From positions 1-64,000 of IMG/VR virus record IMGVR_UViG_3300020198_000887: a DNA stretch of 64,000 nt. The stretch is one strand, 5' to 3'. This stretch comes from a virus. The number at the start of each line of letters is the position of its first letter. The first letter of the stretch is position 1. A model generated the notes under the pieces. It ran no database searches. It was not told the origin of the DNA and saw only the letters and a program-made list of their open reading frames with translations. Shown piece by piece: positions 1-27,100 of the stretch. The position numbers were made by a program, and so were the translations under genes.

Positions 1-30
1 CAACTGTAATTTTGACCTTAGGGGAAGATC

Positions 31-165
31 ATGAATAAATTAATGAAAGTAGCATTGATGGCATTGGTATCCAGCTTTGCGGTTGGTTGCGCAACCAACG
101 GCGACGTTGAAAATCTGCAAACACAAAGTTGGACAGCATGTTCAAAAAAATCACAACATAAGTAA
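31..165 (+). CDS. Small lipoprotein, possibly frameshifted at its C-end
   Basis: A 44-residue protein with a GGGGA Shine-Dalgarno about 6 bases before the ATG. Residues 1-19 form a signal peptide (Lys at positions 3 and 6, hydrophobic core 7-18) ending in the lipobox AVGC, with Cys20 as the lipid-modified residue. The following stretch (GDVENLQTQ) resembles the start of the Lpp/murein-lipoprotein helix. From residue 33 the reading turns odd (SWTACSKKSQHK). The +1 frame there reads LDSMFKKITT and stops, which would suit an Lpp-like helix better, so a one-base indel near position 128 is possible. The lipoprotein call is fairly safe; its role in the phage is unknown. Confidence 0.6.
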   Translation: MNKLMKVALMALVSSFAVGCATNGDVENLQTQSWTACSKKSQHK

Positions 166-170
166 TAAAA

Positions 171-197
171 TTTAGAAGATTCATGGAATCTTCTAAA
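171..197. terminator. 12-bp hairpin after the lipoprotein gene
   Basis: A perfect inverted repeat with arms 171-182 and 186-197 and a 3-base loop. The + strand has no T-run after it, while the minus strand has TTTTATTA, so it may act as a bidirectional or minus-strand terminator or as an mRNA-stabilising hairpin. Confidence 0.45.
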
Positions 198-271
198 AAT
201 ATCCGTTGTATAATTGCAGACAAAGATTTAGACACATTAACACTTATACCGAAGGTGAATCCAAAAATTTT

Positions 272-502
272 ATGAAAATTGTTAAATTAAATAAGACACA
301 CACTTTATTTCATAAAGGATGTACAGTTGCATTGCGTTTCAATTCACCTTGGTCATCAGGGGCCATTCAATGTAGAAAAGCTCTAGCAACCATTGATAAT
401 ACAAAATGGTTTAAATTTAATAGTGGTCATAGAAGACCATACTGGATTGGTTTTACAGATGAAAAATTAGTAACTTGGTTATCATTAATAGTCGATAATT
501 AA
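272..502 (+). CDS. Hypothetical protein, 76 aa
   Basis: Not recognised. The chosen ATG at 272 gives a protein starting MKIVKLNKTHTLF; the upstream in-frame TTG at 206 lies in a promoter-like sequence (TATAAT at 209-214) and is less likely. The protein is basic, rich in aromatic residues (WFKF, PYWIGF) and has no signal peptide or membrane segment. The ribosome-binding site is weak. Coding potential is reasonable, but this could be an accessory ORF. Confidence 0.4.
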   Translation: MKIVKLNKTHTLFHKGCTVALRFNSPWSSGAIQCRKALATIDNTKWFKFNSGHRRPYWIGFTDEKLVTWLSLIVDN

Positions 503-559
503 AAAAATGTGCCATAAGCAGTGAAAAATGTAGTGGTATGTATGTGATACAAATATTAA

Positions 560-638
560 GTTCTTTTCAGCATAATTAATTGGGAAATACAAGCGACACT
601 AAATCGTAAGTTAGAAGGTTCAAATCCTTCAAAAAACA
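560..638 (+). tRNA. Degenerate tRNA-like sequence (CUA at anticodon position)
   Basis: A perfect T-arm (GAAGG / TTCAAAT / CCTTC at 614-630) is followed by acceptor strand 631-637, which pairs 6 of 7 with 560-566. The D-arm is poor. The anticodon stem at 592-596/604-608 pairs only 4 of 5. The seven-base loop places CTA at 34-36 but has A, not U, at position 33. This looks like a decaying tRNA gene; if functional it would read UAG. Confidence 0.4.
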
Positions 639-710
639 AAGAACCTGCTGTTAAAAATAACTCAACCATATTCAATACATAAACAATAAACTTATTTGAT
701 AAGTAGTTGT

Positions 711-1154
711 ATGTTAACAATTTATACCAATAATCAACAGCATACAACATATATAAAATTAACTGAAAAAATATCACAATTTGATAATGTTGGAATTTTA
801 TACTTGCACTTACCATTTTATGATGGTATAATAGATAAAATCAAACTAGATTACGATGTTCCATATAATGATGTTATATCAATAAATGAACATACGAAAA
901 ATTATAAAAGTTTACGGGATAAATTTAAGCGTGAACATTACCATAAAGATTTTGAAATGCGATATTTCACAAATGGGACTGCTACATTTTCAATAAGTAT
1001 TAATAATACGATCTTTGAACTTATAGTGGAACCAAATGATTTGATTTGTATACCACCCAATGTCAAGCATTGGTTCGATGCTGGGGATAATCCAAATTTT
1101 ACAGCAATACGATTTTTTACTGATAAAAATGGATGGGATGCAATTTATACTTGA
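711..1154 (+). CDS. mtnD: Acireductone dioxygenase (ARD/MtnD) homologue
   Basis: A cupin-fold metalloenzyme family acting in methionine salvage: it cleaves acireductone (1,2-dihydroxy-3-keto-5-methylthiopentene) to the keto acid and formate (Fe form). The 147-residue protein keeps the metal-binding set His76, His78 and Glu82 (EHYHKDFE) and His120 (VKHWFD), plus the family signatures DLICIPPNVKHWFD and NFTAIRFFT. It aligns from its N-terminus to bacterial ARD, which is about 180 aa, but ends right after GWDAIYT and so lacks the short C-terminal tail. The ATG at 711 is preferred over a TTG at 696. It sits alone upstream of the tRNA-cluster promoter. Probably a metabolic gene taken from a bacterium. 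Confidence 0.85.
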   Translation: MLTIYTNNQQHTTYIKLTEKISQFDNVGILYLHLPFYDGIIDKIKLDYDVPYNDVISINEHTKNYKSLRDKFKREHYHKDFEMRYFTNGTATFSISINNTIFELIVEPNDLICIPPNVKHWFDAGDNPNFTAIRFFTDKNGWDAIYT

Positions 1155-1179
1155 CAGTTGACCACAGTTGGTATATAAT
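1151..1179 (+). promoter_or_regulatory. Consensus sigma70-type promoter of the RNA cluster
   Basis: TTGACA at 1151-1156, exactly 17 bases, then TATAAT at 1174-1179. The transcript would start near 1186, about 11 bases before the Y-RNA-like element, and run into the tRNA-Leu gene. Confidence 0.85.
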
Positions 1180-1196
1180 ACATATATAGATTAAAA

Positions 1197-1277
1197 GGAT
1201 AGCTACAGCATCAACCAAATTACAGGTTCGATTCCAGTCCCTATAATGGGACTGCTTAACTGGTAAAGCATCTATCC
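1197..1277 (+). ncRNA. Y-RNA-like / circularly permuted tRNA mimic (element E1)
   Basis: The ends pair as GGATAG (1197-1202) with CTATCC (1272-1277). Inside, in this order, are a T-arm (ACAGG / TTCGATT / CCAGT, 1222-1238), a closed acceptor-like hairpin (CAGTCCC - TATAAT - GGGACTG, 1235-1254) and a D-arm (GCTT / AACTGGTA / AAGC, 1254-1269). The 3' half of a tRNA thus precedes its 5' half, with the acceptor stem capped by a loop. This is the layout known for the tRNA-like module of bacterial YrlA Y RNAs, whose 5' and 3' ends form the Ro60-binding stem. The T-stem and the acceptor-like stem overlap by a few bases, so the exact fold is uncertain. It directly follows the cluster promoter. Confidence 0.6.
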
Positions 1278-1334
1278 TGATGAAGATTTATTGCGTTATG
1301 GCGATATGGAGAAATTGGTAAACTCAGCAGACTT

Positions 1335-2023
1335 ATGAAATTGAGCACACGTGATAGAAACACCCGGGTGAATGTACTTAAATTCGGTGAACTCTTAACA
1401 GGTAATGCTGATGACAATACCGAGCTAAATTTTGGATTGTATGTTACGACCTCTATATGTTGGGGTAAATGCATGACAGTTTGGACATAGTAATCGTAGA
1501 TTCGATAATTCATTATTTGTATTATCACCATCTATGTGATCTAATTCAAGCGAAATTGGTTTAGATAACCATTCGGATAAATTACAAGATGAACATATTG
1601 GGTTAAAAACCCCATTATTAAGTAATTTTATTTTTAATTTATATGAATGGATAGTTGAACCCTTTTGTAGATATTCTTCAATTGGTTTTGATCTTTCTGG
1701 AAATTTTCTTCCACCTAGATTCTGTCCAGTGAAATGACTAGTATCTAAATTAAAATGTTTTATAGCACGTTTCAATGTGGTATAATTCCCACCAGCTGGT
1801 GCAACATTTAATTTTTGTAATACTTGTCTTAAAGATACAGAAGTAACAACAGCGTTTTGTAAATCAGTTAACGTGTATTTAAATAGTTTCATAAAATAAT
1901 CCATTAGAAGTGTAGAGACTTAACAGGTACTACCTACGTTGTATTTATGCAATATGGTAAAGATAAAGTCCAGACCACAAACTATGTTTACTAAATATAG
2001 GTAGTGAAAACTATAGTGGTACG
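1335..2023 (+). other. Group I intron in tRNA-Leu(UAA), with endonuclease insert
   Basis: A 689-base intron obeying group I rules: the last exon base is U (1334) and the last intron base is G (2023). Core elements visible are P (AATTCGGTGAA), Q (AATACCGAGC), R (TGTAGAGACTTAACAGG) and S (AAAGTCC). The P7 pairing is GACTT (1917-1921) with AAGTC (1966-1970). An HNH endonuclease gene lies antisense between Q and R. Confidence 0.88.
1425..1904 (-). CDS. HNH homing endonuclease inside the tRNA-Leu intron
   Basis: A 159-residue protein encoded on the strand opposite to the intron. The N-terminal half looks like a DNA-recognition region (LTDLQNAVVTSVSLRQVLQKL, an AsnC/HTH-like start). The C-terminal half is a classic HNH module: CSSC zinc knuckle, LELDHIDGDNTNNELSNLR and LLCPNCH. 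Such enzymes cut intron-free alleles so that the intron is copied into them. The antisense orientation separates endonuclease expression from tRNA transcription. Its 3' end reaches the intron core just after element Q. Confidence 0.9.
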   Translation of the reverse strand: MDYFMKLFKYTLTDLQNAVVTSVSLRQVLQKLNVAPAGGNYTTLKRAIKHFNLDTSHFTGQNLGGRKFPERSKPIEEYLQKGSTIHSYKLKIKLLNNGVFNPICSSCNLSEWLSKPISLELDHIDGDNTNNELSNLRLLCPNCHAFTPTYRGRNIQSKI

Positions 2024-2080
2024 AAAATCTGCCGTCGAAAGACTTCCCGGTTCGAGTCCGGGTATCGCTACCAAACAAAT

Positions 2081-2173
2081 GAAGAGTTGGGTGAGTGGTT
2101 AAAACCACCTTCCTGCTAAGAAGGCATACGGTTAAAAGCCGTATCGTGGGTTCAAACCCCACACTCTTCGCCA
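2081..2173 (+). tRNA. tRNA-Ser(GCU)
   Basis: Acceptor GAAGAGT/ACTCTTC, G73 and encoded CCA (2171-2173). Anticodon arm CCTTC-CTGCTAA-GAAGG gives GCU. It has a long variable arm and T-arm GTGGG/CCCAC. It starts 7 bases after the CCA of tRNA-Leu. Confidence 0.95.
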
Positions 2174-2180
2174 AGTTTAT

Positions 2181-2230
2181 GATACATTTAGCAGTTTAAA
2201 AAACAAACTTAAAATTTGAAAAAACGTATC
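2181..2230 (+). ncRNA. Short stem-closed element E5
   Basis: The ends GATAC (2181-2185) and GTATC (2226-2230) pair. ATTTAGCA follows the 5' arm, and an inner hairpin AGTTT/AAACT is present. It shares the pattern stem, then (T)CAGCA, then insert, then stem, then C-x-GTATAA with elements at 3799, 4501 and 4687, but has no tRNA-like insert. It may be a degenerate relative. Confidence 0.35.
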
Positions 2231-2419
2231 CTGTATAAATATTATATTCAACAACATATAGAATGGTATGAAATATACAAAGAAGTTGGGTTTGACGAGT
2301 TTGTAAGAAGAACTGGGTATAATTATTCAAAACCAAATTTAGTAACAGCATTTTCTAAATTAGTTCCGAATTTTATTCCACAAAACGGTAAGAAAAGATA
2401 TTCCCCTGTAGCTCAGTAG
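2216..2419 (+). CDS. Hypothetical protein, possibly N-terminally truncated
   Basis: The stretch EWYEIYKEVGFDEFV and the C-end KLVPNFIPQNGKKR read like a genuine small phage protein. The only start is a TTG inside element E5 with no Shine-Dalgarno, and the last codons run into the tRNA-Asn gene. No function is recognised. It may be the 3' remnant of a longer gene disrupted when RNA elements were inserted. Confidence 0.4.
   Translation: MKKRILYKYYIQQHIEWYEIYKEVGFDEFVRRTGYNYSKPNLVTAFSKLVPNFIPQNGKKRYSPVAQ
2234..2241 (+). promoter_or_regulatory. T4-type late promoter (TATAAATA)
   Basis: An exact TATAAATA, the -10-like box recognised by T4 gp55-family late sigma factors. It abuts element E5 and precedes the tRNA-Asn gene. 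Confidence 0.5.
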
Positions 2420-2670
2420 GTAGAGCAGTTGACTGTCAAAAGGCAGCTTCTATTGGAAACAATAGTTGAAAAATCCATCAAATTCGGTGAAACCTAAAAT
2501 CGTATGAATATGGCAATACCGAGCCAAGCCTGGAAATAGGAAGGTGTAGAGACTAGACGGTGGAGACCTAAGTTCATAAGAATATGGTCGTGGTATAGTC
2601 CAGAGAGTAATGAAAATTGCACAAATCTGTAATCAATTGGTCGGCGGTTCGAGCCCGTCCGGGGGAGCCA
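2402..2670 (+). tRNA. tRNA-Asn(GUU), interrupted by a group I intron
   Basis: Exon 1 is 2402-2436 and exon 2 is 2630-2670. Acceptor TCCCCTG/CGGGGGA, G73 and CCA (2668-2670). D-arm GCTC/GAGC, T-arm GGCGG/CCGTC. Splicing after U2436 and G2629 gives loop CTGTTAA, anticodon GUU. A naive reading of GTC (Asp) ignores the U-exon/G-intron rule. Confidence 0.88.
2437..2629 (+). other. Compact group I intron in tRNA-Asn(GUU)
   Basis: A 193-base intron between anticodon bases 35 and 36. It holds P (AAATTCGGTGAAACC), Q (AATACCGAGCC), R (GTGTAGAGACTAGACGG) and S (TATAGTCC). P7 is GACTA (2551-2555) with TAGTC (2596-2600), compensatory to GACTT/AAGTC in the Leu intron. It carries no endonuclease. Likely related to the Leu intron but at a different anticodon position. 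Confidence 0.88.
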
Positions 2671-2814
2671 AAATGCATAGCGTCGGCTTTACGCTATGGT
2701 AGGAAAGTGCCTACTGCTCAACGTATATGAGTATCTGCGAAGCAGAAACCTACGGGTTGCCTAACAAACTACAACTAGAGTTGTTATTCGAGTAACAACA
2801 TAAGCAACTATTAT
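2671..2814 (+). ncRNA. Unidentified structured RNA candidate
   Basis: No ORF. Consecutive hairpins can be drawn: TAGCGT/ACGCTA (about 2675-2694), GTAGG/CCTAC, CTCA/TGAG, TCTGC-GAA-GCAGA, and GTTGTTA/TAACAAC (about 2778-2797). A second CCTAC copy could pair with GTAGG instead, giving an alternative fold. It lies between tRNA-Asn and a CAU tRNA, so it is co-transcribed with them. It matches no tmRNA, RNase P or group I core that I can see. Confidence 0.35.
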
Positions 2815-2888
2815 TGCGAGCTCGACTGTCTGGTGATGTCACCAGTTTCATAAGCTAGTTTAGGTCGGTCCGATTCCGGCACTCGTTT
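2815..2888 (+). tRNA. tRNA with CAU anticodon (Met or Ile2 type)
   Basis: D-arm GAC/GTC with GG in the loop, anticodon loop TTCATAA with U33 and CAU, T-arm GTCGG/CCGGC. The acceptor stem pairs only 5 of 7 and no CCA is encoded, so it is either divergent or decaying. Confidence 0.6.
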
Positions 2889-2963
2889 CCGGGTATTACC
2901 GGAGATTAGACCAGTTTGGAAGGGCGATCCTATAGGTTATATGTTTTAAATCCTACCACTTCC
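2888..2963 (+). other. Hairpin and tRNA remnant
   Basis: A hairpin TCCGG/CCGGA (2888-2903) is followed by GGAAGGG (2918-2924), which pairs 6 of 7 with CACTTCC (2957-2963). A T-stem-like ATAGG/CCTAC lies inside with an enlarged loop. There is no recognisable D or anticodon arm, so probably a deleted tRNA. Confidence 0.3.
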
Positions 2964-2992
2964 GATGAGTTATACATATAAAAATTTAGCAT

Positions 2993-3069
2993 GGTCGGGT
3001 GACGGAATAGGCATACGTACAGATTTTAGATGTCTGGTGTTGGGAGTTCGATTCTCCCATCGACTACCA
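2993..3069 (+). tRNA. tRNA-Leu(UAG) with a short variable loop
   Basis: Encoded CCA at 3067-3069, T-arm GGGAG/CTCCC, D-stem ACG/CGT, and anticodon arm CAGAT-TTTAGAT-GTCTG giving UAG. Leucine tRNAs normally have a long class II variable arm; here only about 5 bases separate the anticodon and T stems. Confidence 0.8.
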
Positions 3070-3197
3070 TATTAAAAAAATATTCATGGACCATGAATAG
3101 TGAGACAAATAATTTCTAACTACTTCATTGTGGTTTATATTTGGTACTGACCATGATTATGATTAATAAATATTAAAACATAAAATAAGGATGTATA

Positions 3198-3362
3198 ATG
3201 GCAGCAAGAAATGATGTAACTGGTGACCCTATTCAAACTAGGCCATCCTCTCAAGCATACCGTGACAATTGGGATGCTATTTTCGGTAAAAAGAAAGAAG
3301 ATAAAAAAGCGGTATCTGATACTTCACAAGAGAACAAATCTCTTGACAATAATAATAATTAA
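3198..3362 (+). CDS. Conserved small phage protein, 54 aa
   Basis: Starts MAARNDVTGDPIQ and contains SQAYRDNWDAIFGKKK, a pattern I recognise from many T4-like marine and freshwater phages as a small protein of unknown function. AAGGA lies 7 bases before the ATG. The C-terminal third is low-complexity Lys/Asp/Asn. It is the first of three tightly packed small genes ending at 3708. Confidence 0.7.
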   Translation: MAARNDVTGDPIQTRPSSQAYRDNWDAIFGKKKEDKKAVSDTSQENKSLDNNNN

Positions 3363-3371
3363 GGATATAAT

Positions 3372-3581
3372 ATGTCAACAGTTAGTAAATCAAGCAGACC
3401 ACGTAATGCACCTGGTAAAACACGTAATGGTAAAGTTAAAATTGTTTCACTTACATTATATCAACTACAAGAAATGATAGCAACTGTACATAGACCACGT
3501 GATAAATGTAAATATCAAAATTATATAAATGTTCTTATTAAAAAGGTAAATAAAAATGGCCGTAGAAATAATAAAATGTAG
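3372..3581 (+). CDS. Small basic hypothetical protein, 69 aa
   Basis: Good ribosome site (AAGGATATAATATG). Strongly basic throughout (SRPRNAPGKTRNGKVK at the start, KKVNKNGRRNNK at the end), suggesting nucleic-acid binding, with a central helix VSLTLYQLQEMIATV. The next gene starts inside its 3' end, implying coupled translation. No family recognised. Confidence 0.65.
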   Translation: MSTVSKSSRPRNAPGKTRNGKVKIVSLTLYQLQEMIATVHRPRDKCKYQNYINVLIKKVNKNGRRNNKM

Positions 3582-3708
3582 TTGTTCAGGCACACCAGCT
3601 GCTGAATTCCAAGACAAAACATATGGAAAAGGTATGCGAGTTATGAATTTAGATTTTAAAAAAGTAAACGCAACTTGTACAGTATGCGGTGCTAAACATA
3701 GGAATTAA
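3556..3708 (+). CDS. Small zinc-ribbon protein, 50 aa
   Basis: Two cysteine pairs, CSC near residues 8-10 and CTVC near residues 41-44, likely bind one zinc ion. It overlaps the previous gene by 26 bases in another frame and ends 8 bases before a tRNA. Function unknown; probably a small nucleic-acid- or protein-binding domain. Confidence 0.65.
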   Translation: MAVEIIKCSCSGTPAAEFQDKTYGKGMRVMNLDFKKVNATCTVCGAKHRN

Positions 3709-3716
3709 AGAATACA

Positions 3717-3792
3717 GCCCCTGTAGCTCAGTTGGTAGAGCGATTCACTTAAAGTGAGGATGATGTGGGTTCAAATCCTGTCGGGGGCCCCA
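3717..3792 (+). tRNA. tRNA with UAA anticodon and class I body
   Basis: Acceptor GCCCCTG/CGGGGGC, C73 and CCA (3790-3792), D-arm GCTC/GAGC, anticodon loop CTTAAAG. It decodes UUA by sequence, but the variable loop is 5 bases and the body is not leucine-like. Charging identity is uncertain. Confidence 0.8.
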
Positions 3793-3798
3793 ATTTTA

Positions 3799-3908
3799 GG
3801 ATACATTCAGCAAATCTAAAGCACCCTAGATGTCGTAGGTTCAAATCCTACATTCTCATAATGAGAATTAGCTCAGTTGGTAGAGCGCCAGGCTAAAAAC
3901 ACGTATCC
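3799..3908 (+). ncRNA. Y-RNA-like / circularly permuted tRNA mimic (element E2)
   Basis: The ends GGATAC (3799-3804) and GTATCC (3903-3908) pair. Inside, in permuted order: anticodon-stem 3' strand CCTAG (3825-3829), a 5-base variable loop, perfect T-arm GTAGG / TTCAAAT / CCTAC (3835-3851), acceptor strand ATTCTCA (3852-3858), linker TAA, acceptor strand TGAGAAT (3862-3868; 7 of 7 pairs), T8-A9, perfect D-arm GCTC / AGTTGGTA / GAGC (3871-3886), and anticodon-stem 5' strand CCAGG (3888-3892) followed by CT. This matches the architecture described for bacterial YrlA RNAs, where the tRNA-like module has a capped acceptor and the anticodon side continues into the Ro60-binding stem. It ends just upstream of the ppiC ribosome site. 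Confidence 0.75.
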
Positions 3909-3931
3909 GGTTTTAATTACACGAGGCAAAC

Positions 3932-4207
3932 ATGACAACACAAGTAACAGCAAGACATATTTTAGTTGATACACTAGAAGAAGCGCAAGCATTAGCAAAA
4001 CAAATCAATGAAGGTTCAGATTTTGCACGATTGGCCAGACAACATTCAAAATGTCCTAGTGGAAAAAACGGTGGTGATTTGGGTACATTTGGCCGTGGAA
4101 TGATGGTTCAACCATTCGAAAATATTTCATTTGAACTAGAAATTGATGGGGTGAGTGACCCAGTACAAACACAGTTTGGGTATCACCTAATCAACAGAAC
4201 TGCATAA
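3932..4207 (+). CDS. ppiC: Parvulin-type peptidyl-prolyl isomerase
   Basis: A complete 91-residue single-domain parvulin close in length to E. coli PpiC (93 aa). Family motifs are all present: ARHILV at the start, CPSGKNGGDLG in the middle and QTQFGYHLI at the end. It catalyses cis-trans isomerisation of prolyl bonds and would act in the host cytoplasm, as there is no signal peptide. The groES-like gene starts 2 bases after its stop, so the two form a folding operon. It is unusual cargo for a T4-like phage. Confidence 0.92.
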   Translation: MTTQVTARHILVDTLEEAQALAKQINEGSDFARLARQHSKCPSGKNGGDLGTFGRGMMVQPFENISFELEIDGVSDPVQTQFGYHLINRTA

Positions 4208-4208
4208 A

Positions 4209-4493
4209 ATGACATACCAAATTATTAACGAACGTGTTCTGGTTAAAAAACCAAACGACCCTAAAAAATCAGCATTTGGAATCATCATTGCCAATGACTC
4301 TTCTGAAAAAACTATTACTGGTGAAGTAATTGGAATTGGTGAAGGAAAACCATTGGAAAATGGTGATTATAGACCAATGACAGTTAAGGTGGGCGACAAA
4401 GTAATGCTACCGAACGGTATTGGGATTGAAGTAACGATTGATGAGCAAGAATGCATTGTTATTAAAGAAGATGATATTCTGTTAATAATGTAA
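4209..4493 (+). CDS. groES: GroES-type co-chaperonin
   Basis: A 94-residue Cpn10 fold: N-terminal strand NERVLVKKPNDPKK, a mobile-loop region (residues about 17-32) that would dock on host GroEL, GEVIGIGEGKPLENG, KVGDKVMLPNGIGIEV and C-terminal IVIKEDDILLIM. It follows ppiC directly. A second, more gp31-like co-chaperonin is encoded at 36221, so this phage appears to carry two. Confidence 0.88.
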   Translation: MTYQIINERVLVKKPNDPKKSAFGIIIANDSSEKTITGEVIGIGEGKPLENGDYRPMTVKVGDKVMLPNGIGIEVTIDEQECIVIKEDDILLIM

Positions 4494-4500
4494 TGAAAAA

Positions 4501-4584
4501 GGGTTAGTTTCAGCAATATTATTGTACATGAAAAATACCAGACGCCAGGTAGGGAAATAAGCAATACCCAATGGCGACTAACCC
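4501..4584 (+). ncRNA. Stem-closed RNA element E3
   Basis: The ends GGGTTAG (4501-4507) and CTAACCC (4578-4584) pair perfectly. TTTCAGCAATA follows the 5' arm, as in E2 and E4, and CGTATAAATG follows the 3' arm. An inner hairpin CGCCA/TGGCG is present. There is no T- or D-arm. Candidate Y-RNA without a tRNA-like module. Confidence 0.45.
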
Positions 4585-4592
4585 GTATAAAT

Positions 4593-4677
4593 GCTGAAGT
4601 GACAGAATGGTTATGTACCGGTCTGCAAAACCGTAATTCCGAAAGGTAGTGTGGGTTCGTCCCAATCTTCAGCTCCA
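4593..4677 (+). tRNA. tRNA-Cys(GCA) with enlarged variable loop
   Basis: Acceptor GCTGAAG/CTTCAGC (7 of 7), U73 and encoded CCA (4675-4677). The D-arm region GGTTATGTA matches bacterial tRNA-Cys. Anticodon loop CTGCAAA. The variable region is about 16 bases (can pair TTCC/GGTA), unusual for Cys. Confidence 0.85.
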
Positions 4678-4686
4678 TATTGTTAG

Positions 4687-4893
4687 GATGGGTTCCGCAA
4701 TAAAATTTAATTAATTCTATTAGTATAAATGCTACACTGGATGTATACAGTTATATGTAATGGATATTGCTAGAAAGAGTAACTAGATATGCTCCAATCT
4801 GAATATTGGATATTTCTTATAGAAATAAGATATGGTTGCGGATTATATCTGATGACAACCAGAAACAATAAAATACATCAAATCCGACCATCC
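4687..4893 (+). ncRNA. Long stem-closed RNA element E4
   Basis: The ends GGATGG (4687-4692) and CCATCC (4888-4893) pair. The 5' flank continues TTCCGCAATA and the 3' flank CGTATAAC plus a T-rich run, mirroring E3. The roughly 200-base interior has no ORF. It may be a further Y-RNA-like transcript; the interior fold is unresolved. Confidence 0.35.
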
Positions 4894-4913
4894 CGTATAA
4901 CTTTTTTATTTTT

Positions 4914-5143
4914 ATGTCATATATAGTAGAATTACCACTTACCGCGAATATTGTCCAGAATGGTGGAAACAATTATGTTTAAAATATAATTCAATATCCG
5001 AAGATGAACTTTTAGAAGATACTATTCGTTCATATAGTATTGAAAATGGCGTAACTATACATCTTGATGAAGACCATGATGCAATTGAATACATTGAATT
5101 TAATAGTGAAGCACGATTTCAATGGTTTTTATTAAAGATATAA
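4914..5143 (+). pseudogene. Small ORF needing a -1 shift near base 4939
   Basis: The frame from the ATG at 4914 gives MSYIVELPLT and soon stops. The neighbouring frame from about 4940 reads YREYCPEWWKQL and stays open to 5143 with good phage-like composition (acidic middle, SEARFQWFLLKI end) but has no start of its own. One protein of about 76 aa is made if the ribosome steps back one base at CTTAC. This could be a point indel, a sequence error or real frameshifting. No family recognised. Confidence 0.45.
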
Positions 5144-5172
5144 TTGACACCATTCCAAACTCTGCTTTAATA
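5144..5172 (+). promoter_or_regulatory. Probable promoter of the Ro60-like gene
   Basis: TTGACA at 5144-5149 with an AT-rich -10 region (TTAATA at 17-base spacing, or TACAAT at 21). The -35 box is clear, the -10 box weak. Confidence 0.45.
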
Positions 5173-5234
5173 CAATTATAGATTAGTAACAGCAATCAAG
5201 ATTACTACATACTAACCTGAAATAGGAGATATTC

Positions 5235-6746
5235 ATGACTACATTCGTAGAAGACGCACGAGAACAAGAATCACGCATATCAAATGGGGTGGCTGCTCAT
5301 AAGACCACTACCAATAAAGCAGTGGATTTATTCTTTAATATTGGTGCAAGTAGAGGAAAGGACATTATTCCAGCGTTTACCGCAGCATATGCGGAAAACA
5401 AAGATCTAGCACTTCGTATTGCATTATGGGCGCGTGATGCTCGAGGTGGTGCAGGTGAACGTAAATTGTTCAGAGATATTCTTGTGCATTTAGAAACTGT
5501 TGACACCGATGCTGCAAAAGCATTAATTAATAAAACAATATTGGTAGGAAGGTGGGATGACTTATTAGTGTTTAAGACACCGGAATTGCAACAAGTGGCT
5601 TTCACTAAAATTAAAAACACACTTGTTGCAGGAATACAAGCTAAATCATTATTAGATAGATTTGATGCAATGACTGAAGAAGAAACACTAAAACAAAAAC
5701 TTCAATCACAAATATTCGAAGCAAAATTAGTTGCAAAATGGATGCCTCGTGAAAACTCGGCAAAAAGAAAAATTGCTCAAAAATTAATTAAATTTTTTGG
5801 ATGGTCGCCAAAATATTATCGTAAAACATTGGTTTCATTGACTTCGGTGGTTGAAAACAAAATGTGTGCGAATGATTGGGATAATATTAACTTCAGTCAT
5901 GTTCCATCTTTAGCTAGCTCACGTTATAAAAAAGCGTTTAATCGTCATACACCAAAATTTGCTGAATATGTACAATCATTGATCAACGGTGAACCAACTG
6001 TCAAAGTCAATGCTGGTGCAGTATACCCATATGATATTATTAAAGGAATTGGTATATATGGGTATGATAAAACTGAAAATGCCCATATCGTTGCACAATG
6101 GGATTCTCTTCCAAATTATGTAGGTGATGCTAATATTTTACCTTTGGTTGATGTTAGTGGGTCTATGCAGTGTAGAGCTGGTGGTAATAAATCCAACTCA
6201 GATGTCACGTGTATGGATGTAGCAGTATCCTTGGGGTTATATATAGCTAATAAAAATTCTGGTAAATTTAAAGATACCTTTATCACGTTTAGTGAAACCC
6301 CTGAATTGCGCACATTGCGTGGTAATATTGTGGAAAAAGCAACACAAATGATTGCCTCAAATTGGGGTATGGGAACTAATTTACACGCTGCATTTGACTT
6401 GATTTTAGACGTAGCAACCAAGTTTGATGTTCCACAAAGTGAAATGCCAGAAATGCTACTTATTCTGACGGATATGCAATTTAATTGCTGCACACATTAT
6501 GATGATAGTGCAATTAAAATGATTGAACGTAAGTATACCGCAGCTGGTTATAACACCCCGTTGGTTGTATTTTGGAATATCAATTCATCTGATAACGTCC
6601 CAGTGAAAGCAGACAAATCAGGTGCAGCATTGGTTTCAGGGTTTAGTTCTGCTATCGTTAAATCATTATTGGCAGCTGATATGGGTAATTTCACACCAGA
6701 AGGCATTTGTCTTAACACAGTAATGATTGATAGATATACTATTTAA
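5235..6746 (+). CDS. Ro60/TROVE-like vWA protein (DUF2828-type)
   Basis: 503 residues with a strong AGGAGA ribosome site. Residues 1 to about 280 are helical repeats of the kind that build the Ro60 ring (LALRIALWARDARGGAGERKLF, KLIKFFGWSPKYYRK). Residues about 300-480 are a von Willebrand A domain with a MIDAS metal site DVSGSM at 306, a distal threonine region (GMGTNLHAAF) and LILTDMQF. This repeat-ring plus vWA architecture is that of Ro60/Rsr and the related DUF2828 family. Ro60 binds misfolded small RNAs and Y RNAs, and bacterial Y RNAs are usually encoded next to rsr. Here permuted tRNA-like elements lie just upstream, which supports an RNA-chaperone role, but RNA binding itself is inferred. 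Confidence 0.75.
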   Translation: MTTFVEDAREQESRISNGVAAHKTTTNKAVDLFFNIGASRGKDIIPAFTAAYAENKDLALRIALWARDARGGAGERKLFRDILVHLETVDTDAAKALINKTILVGRWDDLLVFKTPELQQVAFTKIKNTLVAGIQAKSLLDRFDAMTEEETLKQKLQSQIFEAKLVAKWMPRENSAKRKIAQKLIKFFGWSPKYYRKTLVSLTSVVENKMCANDWDNINFSHVPSLASSRYKKAFNRHTPKFAEYVQSLINGEPTVKVNAGAVYPYDIIKGIGIYGYDKTENAHIVAQWDSLPNYVGDANILPLVDVSGSMQCRAGGNKSNSDVTCMDVAVSLGLYIANKNSGKFKDTFITFSETPELRTLRGNIVEKATQMIASNWGMGTNLHAAFDLILDVATKFDVPQSEMPEMLLILTDMQFNCCTHYDDSAIKMIERKYTAAGYNTPLVVFWNINSSDNVPVKADKSGAALVSGFSSAIVKSLLAADMGNFTPEGICLNTVMIDRYTI

Positions 6747-8094: not shown

Positions 8095-10260
8095 ATGTCG
8101 CTACGATTAAGACGAGGCACAAATGCCGAAAGATTATCAGCAACAATTGATTCAGGTGAATTAGTATATGTAACTGATACTAATAAACTATATATTGGTG
8201 ATGGACAAAGTCCAAACCATGGGGTAAACATTTTATCAACATCTGCTGGTATTGGGTTATCATGGAATGACACAACCCAAAAAATTGACCTGAGTTCAGC
8301 AACCATGACTACTGCAAATATTGCTGAATTTGGGAATTTATATTTTACTGCAGAACGGGCGCAAGATGCAATATCGACCCTATTTTCACATAATTCACAT
8401 AATGGCATAACATTTCAATATGATGATTTGAATAATAAAATTAATGCAACTGTGGTACCATTGTTACCTTCCAATAGTGTTGGGTTTTTATACAACACCG
8501 GTAATGGTACATTATCTTGGAATACTACCAACTTTGCATTACAAAACATAGCAGAAGATACTACACCTATGTTAGGTGGGTCATTAAATTTGAATGGCAA
8601 TGATATTATCGGATATGGTGATATTACTATTACCGGAAAAATTGAGTTAGATGGCACTGTGCAGGGTAATATAATACCTAATATTTCATCGGTGTATACA
8701 TTAGGAAACATCAATTATCGCTTGAGCCAAGCATATATCAACACCGTTTACATTGGAAATGAAAATATTTCAAATGATGGTGGGCTAACTATCAGTTCAG
8801 TAACGAATCCAAATGTTTATATTAATAATGTCGGACCGGCACCAGCTAGCTTACGTCTCAGGAAAGCAAAGGGGGCTGTTGGTGATTTACAAACAGTTGC
8901 AGTAAATGACACAATATATGAAATTAAATGGGATGCATATACTACTGATAATGGTTACTTACCAGTGGCTGGAATTGTTGCGAAAGTAACAAACCCCCCT
9001 ACTACGACAGTTGTCCCAACAAAACTTGATTTCTATACAACTGACATTGATGGCAGTAATACGGTAAAAGTATCAATTTTATCTAATGGGCGCTTATCTG
9101 TAATAAATGGGTTGACAACGCATGGGTTAACGTTGGAATATGATACATTATCAGCTAATAATGTAAGTGGATTTGTCCGAATTAATGGTAAGTTGAGTGT
9201 TTCGCAGGACATAGTTGTATTAGGTGATATTCAAGACGCATTTGGCAGATCTCTTATATCTACCCCATTGACTAACCATTTTTATGTAAATCCACAAATG
9301 CCAGGAACATATACCCCTGATGGCAGTATTCAAAAACCATTTTTAACAATCGCCGACGCGCAATTCGCCGCAACACAACTTATTGTTGATGAAGTAATCG
9401 CGCCGTCTGAAGGAAATCCAATTTTTATTGTGTTGCAAGGAAATGTTGTAGAAGATGTAATTTTAGATCATGGGCATATTTTCTTAATCGGGCAATACGG
9501 TGGAATTCATGCACCCATTTACATTTATGGAACTATTACCATAAATGGGTCTGATACAACGGTAAATTCATACGAACTTAATCAATTCAGTATCCAAGGT
9601 GTTTCGGTAGTTTCACCGGACCAGCACGCAAGCATTTACTTTACTGGGGCTAACCCACAACAATTAATGTTAAAAGATGTATGGTTATCCGCGAGTGGCA
9701 ATCAAACCGGGACAGTTCCGTTTACAGATGCTGGTGGTTATAGCATATATTCCGACAACACTGGTATACGATTGAGTGATAACACGCGGTCAACCATTCA
9801 CGGCTCGGATATTAAGTTTAGTCATTCAGGAGCAGGTGATGTATATTGCATTAACATGCTACATGGGGTTTGTGAATTAAGTCACGTCGAAACTAGTAAT
9901 ATTACCCAATTTGGTGCAGTTAAGTCCGGGGCAGCACTTACTTTGCAAAACTCAACCATTATTGGGAATGGGGAGAGTGTGATTGAAGCCTATGGAACTG
10001 GGGTTCTAACATTGACTTCATGCCTACTTGTGAATACTCAACCTAATTCAAATGGGATTAAATTAAATAGCGGCACATCCACTGTTATTATTGGTAACTG
10101 TACGTTCAATATACCGGCGGGTAGTGGAAAAGCGGTGTATAATATCACATCTGGTGGGGCGTTATTCCACTCAGGTAGTATGTTTATGCCTAATTCAAAT
10201 AATAAAATAACAAGTACTATTTTGGCAACTGAATTAGTGACAATATTTGATAATACATAA
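8095..10260 (+). CDS. Tail fibre / adhesin with beta-helix
   Basis: 721 residues. The N-terminus SLRLRRGTNAERLSATIDSG followed by GELVYVTDTNKLYIGDG is the widespread phage fibre-attachment motif. The middle has repeated strand-turn units. Residues about 390-720 look like a right-handed parallel beta-helix (TPDGSIQKPFLTIADAQ, then short Ser/Gly/Asn-rich repeats and CELSHVETSN). It probably binds or processes a host surface polysaccharide. It has its own late promoter and a strong terminator, so it is monocistronic. Confidence 0.8.
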   Translation: MSLRLRRGTNAERLSATIDSGELVYVTDTNKLYIGDGQSPNHGVNILSTSAGIGLSWNDTTQKIDLSSATMTTANIAEFGNLYFTAERAQDAISTLFSHNSHNGITFQYDDLNNKINATVVPLLPSNSVGFLYNTGNGTLSWNTTNFALQNIAEDTTPMLGGSLNLNGNDIIGYGDITITGKIELDGTVQGNIIPNISSVYTLGNINYRLSQAYINTVYIGNENISNDGGLTISSVTNPNVYINNVGPAPASLRLRKAKGAVGDLQTVAVNDTIYEIKWDAYTTDNGYLPVAGIVAKVTNPPTTTVVPTKLDFYTTDIDGSNTVKVSILSNGRLSVINGLTTHGLTLEYDTLSANNVSGFVRINGKLSVSQDIVVLGDIQDAFGRSLISTPLTNHFYVNPQMPGTYTPDGSIQKPFLTIADAQFAATQLIVDEVIAPSEGNPIFIVLQGNVVEDVILDHGHIFLIGQYGGIHAPIYIYGTITINGSDTTVNSYELNQFSIQGVSVVSPDQHASIYFTGANPQQLMLKDVWLSASGNQTGTVPFTDAGGYSIYSDNTGIRLSDNTRSTIHGSDIKFSHSGAGDVYCINMLHGVCELSHVETSNITQFGAVKSGAALTLQNSTIIGNGESVIEAYGTGVLTLTSCLLVNTQPNSNGIKLNSGTSTVIIGNCTFNIPAGSGKAVYNITSGGALFHSGSMFMPNSNNKITSTILATELVTIFDNT

Positions 10261-24100: not shown

Positions 24101-27100
24101 CGGGTTAATTGTCGACGCAATGGCTATTGACCTTGTAACAGGCGGCACATGGCAATCTATCAACGCCGGTAAAAGTTATTATAAAAATGCAAGTTCTCAC
24201 GCAATTGCAATTGGTACACAATTTAGTGAAACAATAGACGGCATCGAATTTGTTAAAGGGTTGGGATTACAAGTTTTAACTCAAACCACTGCTAGTCGGT
24301 ATCAAACATTATTCACACAAACATTTGATAGTGTAAACCATGCGTCTATAAATGCGAATGATACTTTCATTTATAACATGGAAACCATTACAAACATAAT
24401 CAAATTTGGGGTCGGGGCCGCCCCCACGCCAACATTTGGCAGTGGTATTTGGAATATTGTGATTGATAATGGTGGCAATGGATATGTTGATCAAGGTTCA
24501 CCATTGAATAACGATATTATACCAGCAAAAGCATTAATTGGTACTGATTCATTGGCATACTCTTCTATTGTCAAGTATATACCAGAGAGTGCACCCGGGG
24601 TTGATACCATCCAAGTTAGAATGACTAAGCCTGGGTTATATACGGTTGGTGAACAAGTTGAATTTGGTGAAACTGTACGTGATCTTAACATCACTATTTT
24701 TGTAGAAAGTGGGGTGTATTATGAAGACTACCCAATTAGATTACCCGCAAATTGCTCTATTAAAGGGGATGATATCAGAAGAACCATTATTAGGCCACGT
24801 GACCGTGTCTCACAATCACCATGGCGTAAAATATTCTTCTATCGTGACGCAATAGTTGATGCAATGGAAGTCGGGGTGGTCAATTATACTGGACCGAACT
24901 ATGCACCCAACACTAACATAACACTTAGCGGTTCATCAGAAAAAATCATTGTAACTTTAGCAAATGGCCAAGCGTCATCTACCTGGATTGGAAAAGTTAT
25001 TACTGACAACAACATAGTAAAACGTGGTAAAGCTATTATCGATTCAGTAAGTGGCAACTTTATGAATTGTTCAGTAATATACCCATTCAGTACTATCGGG
25101 GTTCTTAATACTGGGGACTGGTTCATATATGATTCTATTAACTATGGACGACATTATTTAACTAATCCATTAGATATTACTAGTCCGTCCAAAAATAACA
25201 AAGACATTGATGTATTCCTATGTAATGATGCAACCCGTATTTCCAATATTACATTTCAAGGACATGGTGGATTTGCAATGGTTCTTGACCCTGGTGGCCA
25301 GATTAAAACTAAATCACCGTATGGTCAAGATTGTTCATCATTTACCCAAAGCACCAATAAAAAACGGTTTGCTGGCGGGCAATATGTGGATGGGTTTGCT
25401 GGTCGCTTAACTGGAACTATAACCGATATTGCAGACAATGGTATAACACTAACAGTGGTTGGTGGTCCTAATAGTGGGTTGGATATTCGCCCTCCACACC
25501 CACCATGTGCATTTTATGTACAAGGCCAACGATATCAAGTAGATGACATTGTAAGTTTTGATGCATCAACTGCAACGGTTGTGATGACACTAAATGTCGC
25601 AACACCATACAATGCAGCAGATTCATATAATAATTCAAAATGTTCACGTGATGTCGGGTTGATTATTGATGCAATTGGATATGATATGGTATTGGGTTCA
25701 AACTTCCAGTCAGTTAAAGCTGGCTTATCATATCTTCGTTCGTATTCGAATACAGTTATTAATAGACAAAAAATTCAAACAATTGCTGGTATTAATAAAG
25801 CAAAAGAATTGGCTAATGCAACATCATCCAATTCCAGTGTGCAATCTGCAATAAATGATAGAATGAATATTATTATGTCTATTATTGAACACGGAATTAC
25901 AAGTATACCCGCAATTACGTATCCAACACCAGTTGGGGCAAGCGAAGATTCGGTCAAAGCTAAAGATATACTAGTTGCCAATCGAAAATTCATTCAAACT
26001 GAAATTACCGCATGGATCTCTAGCAATTATGCTGTCAAATTAATCCCAAACTACAATGCACTAACATGTCAGCGTGATGTAGGATATATTCTTGATGCAA
26101 TGGTGTATGATTTATTTTATGGTGGGAATAGTCAAACTAGGGATTCGGCTGAAGCATACTGGCGGATTTCTGGAACTGCAACCAGCTATATTATTGGTGA
26201 AGAATCTGTTACTATTGCAGCATATACTAGATTAAAAACGATTATACAATCTATAGTTGCGGGGACATCCATCACCAAATCATCTGGTAATACAAGAACG
26301 CAAGTGACTGATAACCCCCCAACTAATCCAAGTTCTTTCAATACTATACTATCATCATTGAGTGATATATTGATAGATTATATACCAGACCACAGTTATA
26401 CTAGTGGAACAGCTGATTATCCAACTATTACACAACAATCTAGTAGTCTACAAACTGCCAGAACCGCTATTTTAACGGCGAAACCAACTATTCAATCATC
26501 TGTAATCTCTTTCTTAAACAGTGGAGGTGGCTTAAAAATAAACATTGAAATGGGTGGCAATAAATCCATGATAGCAAATGATTTTGCCATGATTAATGAC
26601 CTCGGATACGCAATTATCGCTACCAATGGGGCAGTTTCTGAACAAATGTCAACCTTTAGCTATTACTGTCACACCCATTTCTGGGCAAACAATGGTGGGC
26701 AAATTCGTGCAATAGCCGGGTCCAATTCACACGGAAAGTATGGCTTGCGGGCATCTGGTTATGATGTAACTGAATTACCAGATTCAGTTACATTAGCTAA
26801 TAATCTAATTCAAACTGCAAGAATTTACAAGCAAGGTGTGGTATCCAATGAAATGACACCAACTGCAACAACACAATCATTGGCATTATGGATAATAGGG
26901 TATGAGTACGAACCACTGAACGGGTGTGAAGTTGAAATAGATCACACTGTTTTTAATGGGGGTATTTCCAGATACGAAGCTAACTCCATTGAACATACTA
27001 ATATTACAATTAGTGGGCAAAATGTTCTTAAATTATATTTAAACACATCTGGTAATAATGGAACATCAACAACCGGGTTACATACCGAATTATACCATGG

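Follow-up and report, generated by a model that had tools for sequence, protein, structure and literature searches.

The virus record IMGVR_UViG_3300020198_000887 (142 kb; its first 64 kb form the stretch analysed here, called the window) very probably encodes a Ro60-Y RNA system, in which one Ro60-fold protein (gene at 5235-6746) is accompanied by a set of Y-type RNAs. The initial annotation had suggested such a phage-encoded system from the sequence of the window, and the suggestion is supported by the agreement of protein fold, covariation and two-way linkage. The identification as Ro60 and Y RNAs follows from the fold of the protein, a conserved stem with a CAGCA motif at fixed spacing, the covariation of the RNAs and their linkage to the gene. 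In Salmonella, the rsr-yrlBA-rtcBA operon encodes the bacterial Ro60 protein Rsr together with YrlA and YrlB. Ro60 and Y RNAs are also human autoimmune antigens, and their basic job is debated.

The protein matched PHROG 850, labeled "RNA-binding protein" (E 9.7e-135), and the Pfam families DUF7788 (E 2.9e-45) and DUF2828 (E 6.1e-21). It turned out that 681 of 50,697 phage records contain homologues, including Vibrio phage KVP40, Felix O1-like phages, Listeria phage A511 and mycobacteriophages, in which they are annotated as "Ro-like RNA binding protein". When IMG/VR was queried with the single protein no match was obtained, while alignment queries did find homologues, and 67 diverse ones from this database were aligned. 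The AlphaFold2 model built from this alignment had a predicted local distance difference test (pLDDT) score of 90.4 and a predicted template modelling (pTM) score of 0.90. An earlier model from 19 close homologues had reached a pLDDT of only 65, with weak matches to vWA folds alone, and it was the diverse 67-sequence alignment that mended it. The architecture proposed beforehand, a helical ring plus a vWA domain with a metal ion-dependent adhesion site (MIDAS), is borne out by the model and its matches in the PDB, and the MIDAS residues of the pattern DxSxS...T...D (D306, S308, S310, T381 and D413) are invariant across the 67 homologues.

We ran the structural comparison with Ro60 that the initial annotation had called for, using Foldseek against 350,542 PDB chains. 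The six best matches were all Ro60/TROVE structures aligned over the whole length, namely 1yvr (E 5.0e-9), 9kop (E 8.6e-9), 1yvp, which is Ro with RNA (E 3.5e-8), 9nfa (E 6.1e-8), 9l5y, the Ro60 of Thermus phage phiLo (E 3.9e-7), and 9nen (E 4.7e-6), while the seventh was a lone vWA domain (E 7.5e-3). TM-scores to the Ro60/TROVE structures were 0.47-0.59 with identities of 12-19%, indicating that the fold is the same and the sequence distant.

The window contains five well-paired copies of one RNA element and two degenerate ones (Table 1), every one on the strand of the gene. They have in common a stem formed by the paired ends, a fixed 3-nucleotide (nt) spacer and CAGCA(A), and the 3' side is usually rich in A; CCGCA in place of CAGCA occurs among these copies. 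Two of them, E1 and E3, had been described as permuted tRNA mimics, and the order of T-arm, loop-capped acceptor and D-arm within paired ends holds for both. In E1 the T-loop lies at about 1225-1235 and the acceptor-like hairpin at 1235-1254, followed by a D-arm, without an anticodon arm; in E3 the T-arm (3835-3851), acceptor-like hairpin (3852-3868) and D-arm (3871-3886) are found. These are the only copies in the window with a permuted tRNA-like body. E0, E4 and E5, as well as the degenerate E2 and E6, carry the stem and CAGCA without a complete tRNA-like part and had gone unnoticed; support for E2 is weaker, as the strict pattern did not pick it up. Upstream of the gene in L014, the closest relative found (tblastn identity of the protein 71%), there are seven elements, all sharing the strand of the gene. 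Among them, L014:1180-1264 is a counterpart of E4 in type and position, and L014:2530-2746 shares the large inner domain of E5 (AGATATGGTTG..GGATTA...GACAACCAGAAA), a domain for which no Rfam family scored above its cut-off. Another relative (L015) contains at least five elements of this type.

Four copies with a perfect 6-bp stem exist in 1-5234, whereas 1000 dinucleotide shuffles averaged 0.015 copies and never gave more than 1. No such copy was found on either strand in the remainder of the window, and no comparable ones in the rest of the 142-kb record. If the pairing is not required, GN7CAGCA occurs 16 times in the window against 15.2 expected; motif and spacer alone are thus at chance level, and the signal is carried by the pairing of the stem.

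In related phages the elements follow the consensus TTTTAGG-stem-NNN-CAGCAA ... stem-CCTGTTTT. A count of TAGGN4N3CAGCA over about 1.05 Mb of sequence surrounding the gene gave 163 occurrences on the strand of the gene and a single one on the opposite strand, and most of the former (145 of 163) have the exact complement and CCTG downstream, compared with 24.6 (maximum 37) when the stems were dealt among the elements. In 234 loci made unique by protein, a broader 5' motif with an exact partner was present 335 times on the gene strand but only 3 times on the opposite one (shuffled mean 26.7, maximum 41), and 255 of the 335 are no more than 1 kb from the gene. All 1024 pentamers were also counted at a distance of 3 nt behind a paired 7-nt stem. 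CAGCA came top with 271 (median 5), and the runner-up AGCAA (77) is its one-base shift. By this test, 180 of the 234 loci have an element, with 397 elements on the gene strand and 8 on the other. After the proteins were clustered at 60% identity, 44 of 60 clusters had elements, compared with 7 on the opposite strand.

Covariation was measured with anchors picked blind to pairing. It turned out that 92.5% of cells pair, and the covariation score was 0.384, compared with 0.097 for shuffled alignments (0 of 500 reached it) and at most 0.085 when the partner was slid by 1-3 columns. For the tRNA-like type, 18 elements were aligned, two from the window and 16 from relatives (environmental, Felix O1-like and mycobacteriophages). 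Their consensus fold recovered the outer stem, T-arm, acceptor hairpin and D-arm, with two-sided compensatory change in 18 of 23 pairs, and all three arms covary. No anticodon arm appeared in this consensus fold; the outer stem with CAGCA occupies its place. Stem and tRNA-like arms therefore covary in related phages, which speaks against the concern, raised at the outset, that the elements might be noise.

The linkage was also examined starting from the RNA. The pattern TAGGATACNNNCAGCAN{25,55}GTATCCTG matched at least 120 stretches of IMG/VR; among the matches listed, a Ro60-like gene was found in 58 of 120 stretches, always on the same strand (58 of 58) and at a median distance of 295 nt. 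Searching whole records for 48 further ones among the matches listed, we found the gene in 27, including all nine records of at least 100 kb. None of the records without the gene reaches 100 kb; these may be fragments. The elements are linked to the Ro60 gene whether the search begins with the gene or with the RNA.

Altogether 412 elements were classified by length. About half of them are 50-69 nt long, most without a recognisable tRNA-like part, while the longer ones are 100-130 nt (the tRNA-like ones are among these) or 160-280 nt. The tRNA mimics are a minority type within the stem-CAGCA family. In the short elements, CAGCA is directly followed by A in 95%, and the side 5' of the closing 3' stem is A-rich, resembling AAAAAC of the YrlA consensus.

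Table 1. Ro60-fold gene and stem-CAGCA elements of the window
Feature	Position	Strand	Description
E0, Y-like RNA	559-645	+	stem GTTCTTT/AAAGAAC around TTTCAGCA...AAAAAAC; T-arm-like hairpin, D-arm not clear
E1, Y-like RNA with permuted tRNA-like module	1197-1277	+	stem GGATAG/CTATCC, loop CTACAGCA
E2, short degenerate copy	2180-2231	+	TGATAC ATTTAGCA ... AAAAAAC GTATCC TG; first pair broken; without tRNA-like module
E3, Y-like RNA with permuted tRNA-like module	3799-3908	+	stem GGATAC/GTATCC, loop ATTCAGCA, 3' side AAAAACAC
E4, Y-like RNA without tRNA-like module	4501-4584	+	stem GGGTTAGT(T)/(G)ACTAACCC, loop TTTCAGCA
E5, long Y-like RNA	4686-4893	+	208 nt; stem GGATGG/CCATCC, loop GTTCCGCA
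E6, degenerate leader copy	5181-5217	+	GATTAG TAA CAGCA ... CTAACC TG; one A-C mismatch
Ro60-fold RNA-binding protein	5235-6746	+	503 amino acids; helical ring, then vWA with full MIDAS; PHROG 850, Pfam DUF2828 + DUF7788

Since the elements lie among tRNAs of the same strand and T-rich sequence often follows their 3' ends, they could serve a tRNA operon as signals for processing or termination or as structures that stabilise it, recognised by a host factor and only frequently neighboured by the Ro60 gene. For terminators, however, the fixed CAGCA spacing and the conserved internal loop are unexpected, and the search starting from the RNA returns to the Ro60 gene. The tRNA clusters of T4 and T5, phages in which no Ro60-like gene was found, have no elements, whereas mycobacteriophage Finnry has its elements directly beside the gene although the sole tRNA of the locus is more than 1 kb away. 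We consider this explanation unlikely. The resemblance of E1 and E3 to tRNA can be taken more literally: they might be tRNA genes in circularly permuted form, or remnants of tRNA recombination, whose products mature into tRNAs used in decoding. The right permuted order, the good covariation of T-, acceptor and D-arm and the tRNA-rich surroundings would suit this. But the anticodon arm is absent, a long outer CAGCA stem common to the tRNA-less elements stands instead, and mycobacteriophages and Felix O1-like phages have the same body set in the same frame. We consider this reading extremely improbable.

A different question is raised by the copies in the leader of the gene. In 65 of 225 related loci a copy ends no more than 45 nt before the Ro60 start codon, with a peak at 10-29 nt, and such leader copies frequently touch the Shine-Dalgarno sequence; in the window, E6 ends 17 nt before the start codon and adjoins the Shine-Dalgarno sequence. 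This position suggests translational autoregulation, and one might suppose that the elements are mainly cis-acting sites in the Ro60 transcript, with the upstream copies as decayed duplicates. Against this, copies are also located downstream of the gene (70 of 335) or kilobases upstream, several occur per phage, and some have conserved distinct inner domains, all of which points to trans-acting RNAs. A mainly cis-acting role is accordingly very unlikely, and a Ro60 protein with a set of Y-type RNAs is preferred over these alternatives.

Compared with the bacterial Rsr-YrlA/YrlB system, the phage system shares the Ro60 fold and the presence of neighbouring RNAs whose ends pair around a permuted tRNA-like body. 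It differs in that its protein belongs to DUF2828/DUF7788, and its RNAs are multi-copy and mostly without a tRNA-like body. Searches of the 142-kb record for RtcB and RNA_ligase domains found neither, which gives no support to a repair operon of the Salmonella kind. With the Rsr-Y RNA-PNPase machine of Deinococcus radiodurans, the system would share, in its way of working, the logic of a docking stem and an exposed module (PMC7790460, PMC12282133). Thermus phage phiLo (9l5y) likewise encodes a Ro60 fold, but of the TROVE type, in which a profile of the DUF2828/DUF7788 family detects only the vWA motif.

Phage Ro60 proteins and mycobacteriophage Y RNAs are already known, the latter reported by Chen et al. 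(2014), according to PMC12282133. The mycobacteriophages LeBron and Finnry encode homologous proteins (29-32% identity) and stem-CAGCA elements, one with a permuted tRNA body, but their elements lie downstream of the gene and the stems begin with TGG, not AGG. Besides, Finnry contains three copies, compared with five to seven in the window. The LeBron homologue gp53 is annotated as Ro-like, and its overexpression is toxic to the host (PMC13148394). HHpred matched the homologue CKA15_055 of Listeria phage CKA15 to D. radiodurans Rsr, and abundant RNAs near it were suggested to be Y RNAs, with no structure proposed (PMC12282133). The related Listeria phage A511 (L095) has a homologous protein (34% identity) with three stem-CAGCA elements directly upstream of its gene. 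A511 also contains a ROOL RNA match at L095:3507-4058 (record 26196-26747; 87.5 bits, E 3e-16, cut-off 99.1), whose coordinates agree with those of an unexplained CKA15 transcript, the most abundant one (26,236-26,727; PMC12282133), so this transcript is probably ROOL RNA. The simple equation of the three abundant CKA15 transcripts with stem-CAGCA elements was rejected, because the top one maps to ROOL. We found no description in the literature of a docking stem common to these RNAs, of a majority without tRNA-like parts, of sets with several copies or of copies in the leader, though some of this may stand in Chen et al. (2014).

Several results weigh against a Ro60-Y RNA system. For the protein, Pfam TROVE (PF05731) gave no match even at E 10, while the Deinobacterium control matched; phmmer and profile searches of PDB sequences returned no significant Ro60 match, and the best sequence-profile reach to TROVE chains of the PDB was E 0.05. 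Judged from the model, the protein shares the Ro60 fold, yet by sequence it falls outside TROVE proper. For the RNAs, a search with YrlA covariance models had been proposed as a check. The Rfam YrlA model (RF02553) matched E3 with 36.5 bits at 3807-3913 (E 2.1e-5 for the 5.3 kb searched, E 1.3e-7 over the record) and E1 with 19.9 bits at 1184-1296 (E 1.3), and relatives reached 41.8 bits (L014:484-584, a close relative of E3) and 39.5 bits, but all scores in the window and relatives are below the gathering score of 69 bits. The docking stem of the phage elements also departs from the YrlA consensus, having NNN-CAGCA(A) instead. Moreover, 54 of the 234 loci had no element even under the relaxed test, and the loci share ancestry, so their counts are not independent events. 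No stem-CAGCA element was found upstream of the TROVE-type gene of phiLo, and the top RNA of CKA15 corresponds to ROOL rather than to these elements.

As to how a Ro60-Y RNA system would work in the phage, the Y-type small RNAs would come from the tRNA-rich region beside the Ro60 gene and share its strand. The protein would dock on the stem and the CAGCA/A-rich internal loop, much as Ro60 binds Y RNAs, and the variable inner part would stay exposed and be displayed as a module. The short RNAs of 50-70 nt might be gates that occupy the RNA-binding surface of Ro60, although such gating is doubtful. Those that carry the permuted tRNA body, consisting of T-arm, capped acceptor and D-arm but lacking an anticodon, may recruit nucleases or enzymes that handle tRNA, or act as decoys for them. 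A role as decoy was raised in PMC7790460 for YrlA of Salmonella, the tRNA-like domain of which is not an anticodon nuclease substrate. Through the copies abutting its ribosome-binding site, the protein might repress its own translation, and from their placement such autoregulation of the Ro60 gene is a reasonable possibility, if somewhat short of an even chance. The overall job during infection could be the handling of damaged or structured RNA, tRNA foremost, which we propose only tentatively. Small-RNA quality control, which the initial annotation suggested, and a gating of PNPase would be hypothetical roles as well.

The same pairing of Ro60 and RNA in viruses of many bacteria points to a widespread viral small-RNA machine, of which only scattered cases were known before. 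It is close to an even bet that hundreds of phages with very different hosts use one modular ribonucleoprotein, in which Ro60 would read a common stem-CAGCA handle carrying phage-specific, interchangeable modules (short gates, tRNA mimics and large folded domains), and the same handle in its own mRNA leader would regulate its synthesis. A defined docking motif in Felix O1-like phages, KVP40-like phages and mycobacteriophages, which have laboratory hosts, makes Ro60 function testable. Annotation is also gained for the PHROG/DUF family and for many unannotated RNAs of phage tRNA clusters.

In other phages, rnaC and rnaD of T4 and the stable RNAs of T5 were considered as members of the family and rejected, being without the element. 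T5 (L448) has several stable RNAs of unknown function, annotated as misc_RNA, in its tRNA cluster, none with stem-CAGCA.

The tRNA region of the window includes other features. A group I intron at 2420-2622 (59.5 bits) lies inside a tRNA gene with exons on either side (about 2403-2670), confirming that the phage has spliced tRNAs, as was first noted from the sequence. Besides, an apparent tRNA-Leu-like gene at 1297-2071 is split by an insertion of about 700 nt, which carries an HNH endonuclease open reading frame on the opposite strand (1425-1904). Host-like genes are also located in this region, such as an acireductone dioxygenase-family cupin (696-1154), a parvulin-type prolyl isomerase (3932-4207) and a GroES co-chaperonin (4209-4493). 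Downstream of the Ro60 gene, the protein encoded at 8095-10260 contains the N-terminal domain of a major tropism determinant (PF18454), a feature of phages that switch tropism.

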